From the IMG/VR virus record IMGVR_UViG_3300046492_000605, positions 1 through 36,881 of that record: DNA of 36,881 bases, one strand, 5' to 3'. The translations under genes and the position numbers were made by a program. The DNA is from a virus. The notes beneath the pieces are model-generated. The model was not told the DNA's origin and ran no database searches. It was given only the letters and a program-made list of their open reading frames with translations. Shown piece after piece: positions 9,097-13,867 of the stretch (its first letter is position 1; each line of letters starts with the position of its first letter).

Positions 9097-9566
9097 TGGC
9101 CTGCCTCCTGGCTGTGCAACTGGATGGTGGCCAGAACCTCGGCGTGGCGTGCGCTCACGTATTTACTATGGGCCGCGAGGATCGCAGCGGCTTCGCCTTT
9201 GTCGATGACGCCATCGGCCAATGCTTTCTCGATGATCTGATCGACCACGCCACGCTTGGCAGCGGTACTGACCGAACGGCTGTACAGCTCGACGTTGTCC
9301 AGGGTTTCCGGATCGGCGATGGGCACGAACATGCCGCCATAGAGAGAGGCCACGTACTCGGGGAAAAAGCTGGTGCCGGCGTCTCGCTCGAGCATATGAA
9401 TTTGGTCATCGCTCAATGGCCGGCTGCCGGCGTTTTCGTAGAGGTGGTTATCGAACTTCTTGAGTTCGTAGCCGAGGCGCGCTGCCGCACATTCGCGTCC
9501 ACCTGGGTAAGCGCAAACAACGGCACTTACTACTTGGCGTCTGGTTTCTAGCACTGAGCGTTTCAT
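9093..9566 (-). CDS. YmfL-family regulatory protein
   Basis: 157 aa, begins MKRSVLETRRQVVSAVVCAY and carries the AARLGYELKKFDNHLYENAGSR segment and the SLYGGMFVP segment typical of the YmfL (CII-like) phage regulators. Probably binds DNA to steer the lysis/lysogeny choice or early transcription. It overlaps the Ogr-like gene by ATGA and follows the Cro-like gene by 29 bases. Confidence 0.8.
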   Translation of the reverse strand: MKRSVLETRRQVVSAVVCAYPGGRECAAARLGYELKKFDNHLYENAGSRPLSDDQIHMLERDAGTSFFPEYVASLYGGMFVPIADPETLDNVELYSRSVSTAAKRGVVDQIIEKALADGVIDKGEAAAILAAHSKYVSARHAEVLATIQLHSQEAGQ

Positions 9567-9595
9567 GTTCTCGTATCCCTACTTGGCCAGCCGCA

Positions 9596-9808
9596 CTACT
9601 GTGCGCTCACTTCTTCTTTGATCCCGAGCAGCACAGCTGCACGATGGGATTCACCTCGCAGGCACTTTTTCTGACCATTCAGGACCGCATAAACGGTCGA
9701 CGGAGAGAGGTCATGCTTTTCTGCCCATTCCTTTGCCGTGATCCCTTGACGCGCGAGCCGATCACGGGCGTCTTGGCGTGCTTGCTCGGTTGGGTATGTG
9801 TTCGGCAT
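9596..9808 (-). CDS. Cro-like DNA-binding protein (BcepMu gp16 type)
   Basis: 70 aa from ATG 9808 (MPNTYPTEQARQDARDRLAR); the frame is open to 9874 but that extension runs through the operator. An HTH is visible in GITAKEWAEKHDLSPSTVYAV, followed by LNGQKKCLRGESHRAAVLLG, the signature of BcepMu gp16-like phage regulators. First gene of the leftward early operon and divergent from the repressor, the position of Cro. Confidence 0.8.
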   Translation of the reverse strand: MPNTYPTEQARQDARDRLARQGITAKEWAEKHDLSPSTVYAVLNGQKKCLRGESHRAAVLLGIKEEVSAQ

Positions 9809-9850
9809 AGTTCCGTTTCGTGTGATTTCGTGTGATGACAGGGGCAGATT

Positions 9851-9900
9851 ATTCAACAAATGTTGGATAGTCAACTCCTTAAGGGGTCGTTTTGTTGAAT
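9851..9900. promoter_or_regulatory. Lysis/lysogeny operator region
   Basis: Four related half-sites in 50 bases: ATTCAAC (9851-9857) and GTTGGAT (9862-9868) form a dyad with one mismatch and a 4-base spacer; GTCAAC lies at 9870-9875; GTTGAAT at 9894-9900 is the exact complement of the first half-site and lies inside the repressor coding start. Located between divergent cro-like and repressor genes, so it likely binds one or both and lets the repressor control itself. Confidence 0.7.
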
Positions 9901-10218
9901 ATTGGCGAAAGGCTGAAAGAGGAGCGTGTACGCTTGGGATACAACCAGGCGGACTTCGCTGCTTTTGCTGGGGTAGCCAAAACCTCTCAGTTCAATTACG
10001 AGAAAGGTGATCGAAGCCCAGACGCGGCATACCTTGCCGCTGTGGCTGGGAAAGGCGTGGACGTGCTCTACGTCGTTACGGGAGAACGGACACCCTTAGC
10101 CAGCACTTGCTTGAGCCGCGAAGCATTGGACTTCTTCGAGGTGTATCAACTCGTAAGCGAAGCCGACCGTGATGTGCTGTTACGAACAGCCCGGGCTTTT
10201 GCCAAAGCACGCGGATAG
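9892..10218 (+). CDS. XRE-family phage repressor (CI-like)
   Basis: 108 aa. N-terminal helix-turn-helix: RLKEERVRLGYNQADFAAFA then KTSQFNYEKGDRSPDAAYL, as in XRE repressors, followed by DVLYVVTGER and a short helical C terminus without a LexA-type peptidase domain. Start is an unusual TTG at 9892 (a second TTG follows), selected because AAGGGG (9881-9886) lies five bases upstream. The start codon overlaps an operator half-site. It should hold the leftward early operon silent in the lysogen. Without a self-cleaving domain, induction must involve another route such as an antirepressor. Confidence 0.85.
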   Translation: MLNIGERLKEERVRLGYNQADFAAFAGVAKTSQFNYEKGDRSPDAAYLAAVAGKGVDVLYVVTGERTPLASTCLSREALDFFEVYQLVSEADRDVLLRTARAFAKARG

Positions 10219-10314
10219 CAAAGGCGGGCTGAGGCAAGTGATTGAGCTTGCAGGCAGTAGAAAGGAAGTAGCACGCAGGCCATGGTGGCCGGCGAATTAT
10301 CGAGGACGATGTGA

Positions 10315-11103
10315 ATGGACGGTGTTGTAGCGATTGTGGCTTTGGCTGTGTTTATCGGTGTCTGGTGGTGGCTGGTCAAACAGTTGCGCAAGAGCGGCAG
10401 AGGCTTTCTGACGCGACATCTGATGGGATGCACAGCCGCGTGGATGGCGGGCCTTCTGGTTGTCGGTTCTGCAATTTCCATAGGCCTCATCGAAGCCAAG
10501 TCTGAACAGGTTGCTCAGACGGCGGAACCATCCAAACCTGCTGTCAAATACACGATCACCAAAGACGAGCAACGTGGAAATGCTCCTCGGAAAGTCGAAG
10601 TTTTGTTGTCACGCCGCTTAACTGACGCCGAGCTCGCCGATGTGGCCAAGACGATTCGCGACGATTCGAAGGTAAAGGCTGAACGGTCTTTCATCGGATT
10701 CCGTGTTGAGGGTCAAACCGACAAGAGTTACTGGGCTAATGCCAGTTTTGACCCCGATTACAAAAGCTCTGTGATCGGCTTGAGTGCGGCCGATTATCAA
10801 GCATTAACTGTCATGGACCTCTCGGCCTATCCCGAGCAGGTTGGCAGCTGGCTGCGCGACGGCGCGCTCGGCCATGTCATGGTTCTCTACAAAAAAGACG
10901 GCAAGTACTTCATTGATTCCGTTTTCTCAGGCGGCGGCAAGAACACCAACGGGTACGTCGCAAAATCGTTGCCAGACGGTGGAATGCGCCTTGAGGAGCC
11001 GGATAACGGATTTGGAGAGTATTACATCCTGAAGAAGGACGGCGTCCTTGAAGGTTGGGGAGAGAATGGTAAGTACATGGCACTCCCGCCATTTCGGACT
11101 TGA
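10315..11103 (+). CDS. Membrane protein, probable lysogenic-conversion gene
   Basis: 262 aa, not recognised as a named family. Two hydrophobic helices (about residues 4-20 and 41-58), then a large soluble domain with beta-rich segments (YKSSVIGLSAADYQALT, GHVMVLYKKDGKYFIDSVFSG without the usual signal cleavage site). A GAGGA ribosome-binding site precedes the ATG. It is transcribed in the same direction as the repressor and directly after it, so it may be expressed in the lysogen. This and its neighbour 11193-12149 are not part of the P2 core. Confidence 0.65.
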   Translation: MDGVVAIVALAVFIGVWWWLVKQLRKSGRGFLTRHLMGCTAAWMAGLLVVGSAISIGLIEAKSEQVAQTAEPSKPAVKYTITKDEQRGNAPRKVEVLLSRRLTDAELADVAKTIRDDSKVKAERSFIGFRVEGQTDKSYWANASFDPDYKSSVIGLSAADYQALTVMDLSAYPEQVGSWLRDGALGHVMVLYKKDGKYFIDSVFSGGGKNTNGYVAKSLPDGGMRLEEPDNGFGEYYILKKDGVLEGWGENGKYMALPPFRT

Positions 11104-11192
11104 TTCTCGGGAGTATGCTTTGGTTGCGAAAAAGCGCTCTGTTTGACTAGCCCTTTTGTATTTTTTTCTGGCCATCGATTGCGGCATCAATA

Positions 11193-12149
11193 ATGACTGA
11201 TGATACCTGCGACACCACGCGTGATTTAGTACTTGCACGGCTCCGCCTAGCTCAAGCTTTGCTCGAAGAGTCGGATCGGCTTGAGGGTTTTGAAGGGTAT
11301 GTGATGGATGCCGCTGAATATTGGCTGCATGCGCGGCATGAAAGAGAGGCTCTCGTTGCATATTTGTTATTAACCTGTTTCGACATACTTGGGAGAAAAG
11401 AAAAGCATCTGACATTCGCTGACTGGGTTAATAGCAGGAAAGACATTCACATTGCTCAAAAACAGACTGCGATCAATTTGAATCAAGAGTTGAATGGAGG
11501 CGATCCGCTTAGTTTGACCAAGCTTTTGCTGGCAAAGCATTCAGAGATTTTCGGAGTAAAGAACTCTTTTTACTCCGGCATGGATACGTTGACAGATAGT
11601 GGAAAGCAAAAACTTTTTTGCTCGATAAGCGTGGGCTTTCTCCCCGGGCACTGCAATGATCCGAAGGTCAGCTACCCCCTCGAACCTATAAGTGATTCAG
11701 CCGAGGAGATGAGGTTAAAAAAAGCATATGTTTTTCGAAGAAGAAATAATTTCACTCATAATCTCGAGCAATTTCAGATGTCGTCTGTACCCATGCATAC
11801 TAAAGGCGCGGATCAGCCTACAGCCTCTTGGATGGCCATGCTAGAAGACGGGGAAGTTAGATACTGGGGAGTTCATTCAGAACGAGTTCCGTATAAAACT
11901 GGCCATTATGTTTACTCGTTAGGTCAGTGGCCGTTTGTGTTGTTTGAAGTTTTGTATGAAGCTATAAATATACCTTTCGATATAACTAATATTGATTTGA
12001 AGTTTTATCTTTGGATCCTTAGTAACAGAAATCAAAAAAATATGCAGCTCCGCTGCATCCCCCACTCAATTTTAAAATGCGCGTCCGAAAATTGGGCGCA
12101 CATAGAGTCTCTCTTTGAAGAAGCGCCGAGTTCTGCAGCTGACCAGTAG
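11193..12149 (+). CDS. Putative HEPN-domain protein, candidate defence gene
   Basis: 318 aa, no family recognised over the full length. It contains RNNFTH (residues 184-189), an exact match to the Rx4-6H, RNxxxH-type motif of HEPN RNases, within a helical context (KKAYVFRRRNNFTHNLEQF). An earlier all-helical part (REALVAYLLLTCFDILGRK, residues 51-69) resembles the long helices of HEPN folds. The gene is visibly AT-richer than the phage core and has no good ribosome-binding site. Lying between repressor and the late cluster and oriented with the repressor, it looks like acquired cargo; RNase-based abortive infection is a reasonable but unproven role. Confidence 0.55.
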   Translation: MTDDTCDTTRDLVLARLRLAQALLEESDRLEGFEGYVMDAAEYWLHARHEREALVAYLLLTCFDILGRKEKHLTFADWVNSRKDIHIAQKQTAINLNQELNGGDPLSLTKLLLAKHSEIFGVKNSFYSGMDTLTDSGKQKLFCSISVGFLPGHCNDPKVSYPLEPISDSAEEMRLKKAYVFRRRNNFTHNLEQFQMSSVPMHTKGADQPTASWMAMLEDGEVRYWGVHSERVPYKTGHYVYSLGQWPFVLFEVLYEAINIPFDITNIDLKFYLWILSNRNQKNMQLRCIPHSILKCASENWAHIESLFEEAPSSAADQ

Positions 12150-12445
12150 CCTTGGTTCCCTCTCTGCAGGTGATTGCTCGTGAAGAGTGGTAGTCCGATC
12201 TGACCAAAATGAGGGTGCTACTTGCCAACGTGCAGCCAACCGAGAAGGACCTAGGGCTTGCACTTTCAAAAGTATGCGTAGGTTAGGGAGTGGCCACCTG
12301 GAGGCTCCCGACACCAACACGAATTGCTAAACAAAATACTTTGGCATGCTGGTGGCACGTTTCGATGTGCTGAGAATAGGGAACTCCCGGGTGCTTTGGG
12401 CAATGTCATCGACGCCAGCGCCCGTCACATGGAAATGGAGTACCT

Positions 12446-12565
12446 ATGATGGAAAACCTTACCCAATTGGAGTGTCTCTTCCTGGTGTTGCTGCGAAGCC
12501 TGAGCGATCAGCAACGAGCGGATGTGATGAGAATCCTGGAGGTGCTTCAGCAGTCTGCGGAGTAA
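12446..12565 (+). CDS. 39-aa small phage protein
   Basis: Begins with two Met codons (12446 and 12449), preceded by GGAG at a five-base distance; the product MMENLTQLECLFLVLLRS continues with a leucine-rich helix to QQSAE. It is followed at once by a strong terminator. The 296 bases before it (12150-12445) hold no other gene that I can support. Function unknown; a short amphipathic or interaction helix. Confidence 0.6.
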   Translation: MMENLTQLECLFLVLLRSLSDQQRADVMRILEVLQQSAE

Positions 12566-12578
12566 GGCAGTAGTAAAG

Positions 12579-12603
12579 AACCCGGCCCAGTGCCGGGTTT
12601 TTT
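12579..12603. terminator. Convergent-end terminator
   Basis: Stem AACCCGGC/GCCGGGTT (12579-12586 and 12592-12599), 5-base loop, T run at 12598-12603. It ends the rightward transcript and lies five bases from the stop of gene D on the other strand. Confidence 0.85.
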
Positions 12604-12607
12604 GTGC

Positions 12608-13867
12608 TTAGGATTTGCTGGCCTGCAGGCGCTTCCACTCCCTTTCTGCCGCCCTTTGTGCTGAGGCTTTGCTCTCATAAAGATGGGTGAGCCGCCTCGG
12701 CTTGCTCTGATCACCCTCGGTGATTTTCTTCTGTTCCCCCGTCTTCTCGTCGCGGTACCAAGCCACGATTCCTGTGAGCCCTTCGGTGCCGTCCGCCAGT
12801 TCGTCTATTCCATCATCGTCCGGCAGCTTCGATTCCAACTCCAGGCTGGTGGTGTAGGTGTCCGAGGTAAAGCTATGGCGCAAATTGCTCCCCACCCAAA
12901 TGATGGCGCCGATCTCGGCCTTGATGCCCAGAAGGCTGAAAGTCTGATCGGGAATGAGCTCTGGCCGACCTTTGGCCAGGGAGTAACTCAAAGTCGCGGT
13001 ACCACGCTGAAGCCGACGCCATTCAGCCCGGGCAGCGCGCAATGCGCTGTCCAGATCCGTATGGCTGTGGCGTAGTTCCTTCAGGTTGTCGCCGCCGCCG
13101 GCGATCGCTTCCTTCTTCTCGGCGCTGTTGACCTCGTAGTAGTAGGCCTTGACCCCGGTGTAACTGTCGCGGTCTGCCTGGAGGAAACGGTGCTGATCTC
13201 CGTCAGCTCGAGTCAGCACGACATGCGGCAGTGGCGCGCCGCTGGCGGTGGTGCTCTTGCCCGCAGGCATGAACAGCAGCCGGCCGGCTTTTACTGCTGA
13301 GATGGCGTCGTGCTCCTGGCCCAGCCGGGTCAGCAGGTTGGCGTCACTTTCGTTGGCCTGGTCCAACTGCAGCAGGTCGATCGCGGCAAGTAATGGACTG
13401 ATGACAGGGGCCAGGCCATGGGCGGCTGCAACCGCACCAATCACGGTGCCCAGGGTAGTGGCGCTCCAGCTGCGTTCTCGTTTGACCTTGAGCCCGCCCC
13501 GTAGGTCAGCGCTTCGCGCGCGAATGCTGAGCGTGTCCGGAGCGCCGCTGTGCTCGGTTTCATCAACGGTATAGCTGCCTTTGTCGATAAGGCCCGTGTC
13601 ACTCCAGCCGAGCCACAGCCGCACCGTCGCGCCGCGCGGTGGGATAGCCAGTAGGCCATCGTGATCGCTGAGGTTGATGTCCAGCTGATCCGCTTCCATG
13701 CCGCGGTTGTCGGTCAACTCGATGCTGATCAACCGCTTCTCAATGGCGCTGGTGATGTCCTGGTCATTGACCACCACGCGGCAGATCGGTCGGGCGTAGG
13801 AGGTTGCCTTTCGGTACCGGCTTGCCGCGTCCTGGAGCAGGCTGCCTGCTTGTTCGATCGTGTTCAC
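12608..13867 (-). CDS. D: Late control/tail protein D
   Basis: 419 aa, start GTG 13867 overlapping the stop of U (GTGA). Similar to P2 gpD through its length: an N-terminal barrel (YARPICRVVVNDQDITSAIEKRLISIELTD), the hub-like region LWLGWSDTG and the LysM-like middle, and the C-terminal domain with RAEWRRLQRGTATLSYSLAKG. gpD is a central tail-tube-end component of the baseplate hub in contractile-tailed phages. Last gene of the FI-D operon. The C-terminal extension (residues 340-419) with the YRDEKTGEQKKITEGDQ segment is longer than in the P2 protein (387 aa). Confidence 0.93.
   Translation of the reverse strand: MNTIEQAGSLLQDAASRYRKATSYARPICRVVVNDQDITSAIEKRLISIELTDNRGMEADQLDINLSDHDGLLAIPPRGATVRLWLGWSDTGLIDKGSYTVDETEHSGAPDTLSIRARSADLRGGLKVKRERSWSATTLGTVIGAVAAAHGLAPVISPLLAAIDLLQLDQANESDANLLTRLGQEHDAISAVKAGRLLFMPAGKSTTASGAPLPHVVLTRADGDQHRFLQADRDSYTGVKAYYYEVNSAEKKEAIAGGGDNLKELRHSHTDLDSALRAARAEWRRLQRGTATLSYSLAKGRPELIPDQTFSLLGIKAEIGAIIWVGSNLRHSFTSDTYTTSLELESKLPDDDGIDELADGTEGLTGIVAWYRDEKTGEQKKITEGDQSKPRRLTHLYESKASAQRAAEREWKRLQASKS

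Follow-up and report, generated by a model that had tools for sequence, protein, structure and literature searches.

The window analysed here, a virus record of 36,881 nt (36.9 kb), belongs to a P2-like phage of the Pseudomonas type, and its cargo region shares about 70% DNA identity with the Citexvirus phages Dobby, D14A and Sirocco. Between an XRE-type repressor gene and tail gene D lie a gene for a membrane-anchored protein and a gene for a protein of 318 residues, hereafter the cargo gene (Table 1). The preliminary description had presented the latter as an AT-rich gene unlike its neighbours, in a cargo position and oriented with the repressor, and these points were borne out. The G+C content of the gene is 0.439 (GC3 0.448), compared with 0.581 for the whole window and 0.53–0.62 in the neighbouring genes, the cargo gene and the repressor gene both lie on the plus strand, and the cargo gene sits in the slot between D and the repressor and is absent at the empty site of the related phage L110.

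Table 1. Features of the cargo locus, in window coordinates
Feature	Position	Strand	Basis
XRE-type phage repressor, left anchor	9892..10218	+	PHROG transcriptional regulator/repressor matches; synteny in relatives
Membrane-anchored protein adjoining the repressor	10315..11103	+	occurs with and without the cargo gene
Inserted cargo cassette	11112..12239	+	missing from phage L110, a close relative
Cargo gene, very likely of the HEPN family	11193..12149	+	ORF with ATG start, 318 aa; homologues; dN/dS 0.18
YLLLTCFD, residues 57–64, conserved core of predicted helix 2 (47–66)	11361..11384	+	invariant in 20/20
RNNFTH, residues 184–189, predicted RNase active site (Rx4H)	11742..11759	+	conservation; end of helix 169–190
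Beta-strand insert, residues 213–244, between motif helix and last core helix	11829..11924	+	model secondary structure
Terminator-like hairpin	12584..12599	+	consensus scan only
Tail gene D (late control D family), right anchor	12608..13867	-	synteny with Dobby, D14A, Sirocco and 80 related viral loci

A consensus scan predicted no plus-strand terminator between the repressor gene and position 12584, so the repressor, the membrane gene and the cargo gene could share a transcript. No promoter-like site for the cargo gene was found, and these sequence features make it plausible that the gene is expressed from the repressor transcript. Positions 9500–13000 held no Rfam families.

Comparison with related phages defined the insert. 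Phage L110 aligned to window positions 10263–11111 and 12240–12601, at 86% identity each, with 19 bp between the two blocks; the cassette is therefore about 1.1 kb long and holds the cargo gene only, and the borders read from L111/L047 agree with those from L110 to about 10 bp. In the unrelated phage L021 the similarity was limited to window positions 11183–12157 (84% DNA identity), and the copy is located between an integrase gene and what, by eye, resembles the 3' end of a tRNA gene, no complete tRNA being called there; this is a typical position for a moron. The precise empty site in L110 and the single gene shared with L021 show that no partner travels with the cargo gene. The dN/dS of 0.18 between the window gene and the phage homologue (L005/L021) indicates purifying selection, by which the protein has been maintained. 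Phage L021 (L021:6597-7571) also has a DUF4238 gene, a common type of phage cargo.

The adjoining membrane protein is found in L110–L114 at 41–89% identity and belongs to no named family. It is present also where the cargo gene is missing and is therefore not an obligate partner; possibly it is a superinfection or lysogeny accessory. As a candidate antitoxin for the cargo protein, it was rejected on the empty-site comparison.

Variable genes fill the segment between D and the repressor in about 50 related viral loci, where it spans approximately 0.4–5 kb and its genes are often AT-rich and lie on the repressor strand. A PADLOC scan of 30 non-redundant cargo proteins from this slot recognised AbiU, PD-Lambda-5 A and B, PDC-M18A, a type II methyltransferase and others, and the AbiU (AIPR) gene of L043/L112 occupies the identical gap. 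In relatives of the window phage, the slot is a cargo hotspot for anti-phage genes, and it differs in location from the cos-proximal hotspot between gpA and gpQ of E. coli P2-like phages (PMC9122126).

Several further observations concern the cargo of these phages. A two-gene cargo recurs in L067, L074, L085, L089, L091 and L107 (e.g. L107:5096-6509), in which a gene for a small membrane protein (about 160–180 aa) overlaps that for a protein of about 300–340 aa; the pair is a possible defence module. PADLOC 2TM_IV and PDC-M38A had two matches each in the scanned cargo set as a whole. Membrane cargo proteins with similar N-termini are encoded at L110:7187-7984 and L047:7256-8164, in a second slot reaching from a small ORF region to tail gene D.

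The cargo protein had been described as matching no known family, and library searches led to the same result: comparison with Pfam, NCBIfam, PADLOC (2023) and PHROGs gave no match, even at E 10, and none was obtained among 50,697 phage records. Homologues were recovered by tblastn on plasmids of Enterobacter, Citrobacter and Pseudomonas, another was found in a second phage, and 15 more came from genome contigs of Pseudomonadota, Campylobacterota, Bacteroidota, Bacillota and others. Members L012, L013 and L016 are extended at the N-terminus, by about 100 aa, and L014 and L019 at the C-terminus. Profile searches of about 400 and about 300 genomes of two phyla found the family only in the seed genomes, so it is sparse, and the Citrobacter homologue had no DNA match in E. 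coli genomes. A Pfam scan of all 20 members returned only scattered weak matches and no HEPN family, and profile searches of PDB sequences yielded only unrelated chance matches.

The central claim of the preliminary description was a HEPN-type RNxxxH motif at residues 184–189. The hexamer RNNFTH is indeed present there, but composition-preserving shuffling of the cargo protein yields an RNxxxH hexamer in about 3% of cases, so that in one sequence alone it is weak evidence. The alignment of 20 homologues was more informative: R184 is retained in 20/20 and N185, T188 and H189 in 19/20 each, and 19 of the 20 preserve the complete pattern R-N-x-[FY]-T-H, across many phyla and down to about 20% identity, while most of the remaining sequence diverges. 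The only exception is L020. Such conservation is far beyond chance. RNNFTH thus agrees with the HEPN definition, Rx4-6H with a polar residue after the arginine.

The search seeds bear on how this conservation is read. The YLLLTCFD block served as the seed for the genome loci, and its invariance among them is thus partly by construction; in the three plasmid homologues, found by tblastn without a seed, the block is present independently. The motif was also a seed for some loci. In seven genome loci (L011–L013, L015, L016, L018 and L019) the motif or the residues preceding it fall outside the motif seed pattern, and the motif in loci reached only through YLLLTCFD (e.g. RNDYTH, RNNYTH) is independent evidence.

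HEPN domains consist of two helical hairpins, with Rx4-6H ending helix 3, a polar residue (mostly N, D or H) after the arginine, often an acidic residue in helix 2, and a variable insert between helices 2 and 3 (PMC3710099). The AlphaFold2 model of the cargo protein (mean pLDDT 86, pTM 0.84) contains helices at residues 4–27, 47–66, 75–143 (in pieces), 169–190 and 248–257 and strands at 213–244 and 270–290. Whether the motif lies at a helical active site or in a loop had been set as a test, and in the model R184 and H189 are at the C-terminal end of helix 169–190, where HEPN proteins have Rx4-6H. The model of the compact relative L015 (246 aa, pLDDT 80.5) agrees, with R169–H174 within helix 158–175. 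The predicted layout fits the HEPN definition with long inserts. The one between helices 2 and 3 exceeds the inserts of up to 60 residues described for HEPN families, which speaks against the assignment, and the beta insert is a candidate sensor or regulatory part. The acidic feature is less clear in the model: D64, the last part of helix 2, does not vary, but with helices 47–66 and 169–190 expected to run antiparallel it is possibly far from the motif, and E52, also in helix 2, is only partly conserved, the HEPN acidic feature being Ex3[KR].

Comparison with HEPN folds, proposed earlier as a check, separated them better for the compact relative than for the window model, whose ranking was weak and tied. 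In the VIA structural comparison, AbiV came first for the window model (9bj7, Z 5.2, rmsd 3.5, 113 aligned residues), and several HepT and HEPN entries stood in the top rows, tied with unrelated bundles. For L015, solved HEPN domains made up nine of the top ten rows with Z 6.4–8.0, including HepT (7ae6, Z 8.0, rmsd 3.9, 127 aligned), AbiV (Z 7.0) and AF0298 (Z 6.4); the best non-HEPN row was SUGP1 at Z 7.0, and the next clearly unrelated row stood at 5.8. VIA Z values of 5–8 fall in the range of common helical bundles and would not settle the fold alone. Foldseek against PDB and BFVD gave nothing significant for either model; among the non-significant matches of the first PDB list, HepT chains ranked 21st, 29th and 31st. 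Since the Z values of L015 combine with the position and the conservation of the motif, it is very likely that the cargo protein has a HEPN fold and active site.

Neither Pfam nor hhalign linked the protein to any named HEPN family by sequence or profile. Tha of a Staphylococcus aureus prophage is a HEPN protein of 301 aa with R265NSIMH270, which is activated by tail proteins; its RNase kills the infected cell, and the H270A mutant gives no protection (PMC11087260). Like Tha-1/Tha-2, the cargo protein stands alone, has about 300 residues (318 versus 301 in Tha), is encoded near a temperate phage repressor and carries R-N-x-x-x-H. In Tha, however, the HEPN part is a contiguous C-terminal domain (184–296), whereas inserts interrupt the predicted bundle of the cargo protein, which begins at residue 4. 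Tha also has an overlapping gene, ith (xis), that counteracts it, and no such gene was recognised overlapping the cargo gene. No homology to Tha-1 was detectable (BLASTP E 3.8 over 5 residues; hhalign probability 0.6), and the resemblance is thus one of analogy and not of membership.

HepT of MntA-HepT (MNT-HEPN), the best structural match of L015, shares the Rx4H active site, but the cargo protein is much larger, has inserts and shows no sequence similarity to it. The lactococcal abortive-infection protein AbiV, first for the window model, is likewise without sequence similarity and typically lacks the histidine of Rx4-6H (PMC3710099), which the cargo family keeps. RiboL-PSP-HEPN and MAE_28990 (PF18735/PF18737) are HEPN proteins with an R-N-x-x-A-H motif that differ from the cargo protein in size and inserts; hhalign paired their motif helices with those of the cargo family in both directions at probabilities under 5%, far from significant. 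For RiboL-PSP-HEPN (PF18735) the probability was 0.2–0.3, under 1%, with the best local alignment on the motif helix, and hmmscan found no match to it in the 20 members. A comparison set for HEPN_Apea was also sought, but only one member turned up, too few for a profile. The CRISPR-associated HEPN protein Csx1 resembles the cargo protein in layout only, no CARF domain being recognised and no CRISPR context noted in the window.

Given a HEPN active site, the cargo protein is likely to be an active RNase, and it probably acts against phages by abortive infection. An active RNase could also serve another role, such as prophage stability, plasmid exclusion or stress response, as might suit the homologues on plasmids and in stretches of chromosome that lack known defence genes. 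This is unlikely in view of the occupied hotspot, rich in recognised anti-phage genes, and of Tha, a prophage-borne HEPN RNase that is a proven defence (PMC11087260). Some distant homologues have defence genes near them, namely a GmrSD_N gene and a HEPN_MAE_28990 gene near that of L016, an ABC-3C component near that of L013 and PDC-S13 near that of L011; these neighbours serve as supporting evidence only. At L016:5485-8780 the GmrSD_N (DUF262-type) gene, the MAE_28990/RiboL-PSP HEPN gene and the family member are consecutive on one strand, a candidate defence cluster.

A toxin-antitoxin pair, in which the protein would be the toxin and the membrane protein or another neighbour the antitoxin, is improbable. 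HEPN domains are common as the toxins of MNT-HEPN pairs (PMC3710099), and on two enterobacterial plasmids (L002:5696-6894 and L003:5714-6894) there is a 4-bp overlap between the homologue and an upstream gene of the Hha/YmoA family, which suggests translational coupling or a nucleoid-protein regulator. A Hha gene was recognised beside no other homologue, however, and no nucleotidyltransferase or other constant partner appeared in the loci read; in particular, no minimal nucleotidyltransferase gene adjoins the window gene or was recognised by eye in relatives. The membrane gene, for its part, occurs without the cargo gene in L110, L111 and L112, and it was the cargo gene alone that moved into phage L021.

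There is a similarly small chance that the HEPN fold serves a non-catalytic, RNA-binding regulator, for example of the lysis-lysogeny decision or of host RNA. Some HEPN domains are without activity (PMC3710099), the cargo gene lies close to the repressor, and the Bacteroidetes contig L020 carries a tandem pair of members (L020:5685-7218) in which the motif is lost from both copies (RHCYSG and RCSYMR). The complete R-N-x-[FY]-T-H in the other 19 homologues, mostly of non-phage origin, would be unexpected for a phage-specific regulator. That the motif is a coincidence in an unrelated helical protein is very improbable: the frequency of the hexamer in shuffles and the lack of a significant HEPN link by sequence or Foldseek would allow it, but the motif is conserved, ends the third core helix and goes with a predominance of HEPN rows for L015.

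The cargo gene thus probably encodes a HEPN-fold endoribonuclease that stands alone, belongs to an undescribed family and would be triggered by infection and abort it. In the proposed mechanism, the predicted helices 4–27, 47–66, 169–190 and 248–257 would form the bundle, with the long helical insert between the second and the third bundle helices and the beta insert after the third. The protein would most likely be a dimer, as in other HEPN RNases, in which R184 and H189 of the third helix would face a basic cleft, and metal-independent cleavage of RNA would produce a 2',3'-cyclic phosphate. In the lysogen, it may be expressed together with the repressor and be inactive; an infecting phage would make the trigger that switches it on, and the active protein would degrade host or phage RNA, by which the infection would be aborted. 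An endoRNase that stands alone and is inactive until infection would be the most economical reading, with Tha as its best analogue. More tentatively, the protein might combine sensor and effector in itself, the beta insert and the family-specific helical insert directly recognising a conserved phage product and switching on the HEPN site.

If this sensor-effector reading is true, the family would be a second, independently evolved design of the Tha kind, spread across phyla as a single gene common to unrelated prophages. An endoribonuclease triggered by infection would also mean that current defence finders have overlooked a HEPN RNase family that acts on its own and is passed as a single gene among unrelated prophages and plasmids, and that the slot from D to the repressor in P2-like Pseudomonas phages would be a place for finding more uncharacterised defence genes.
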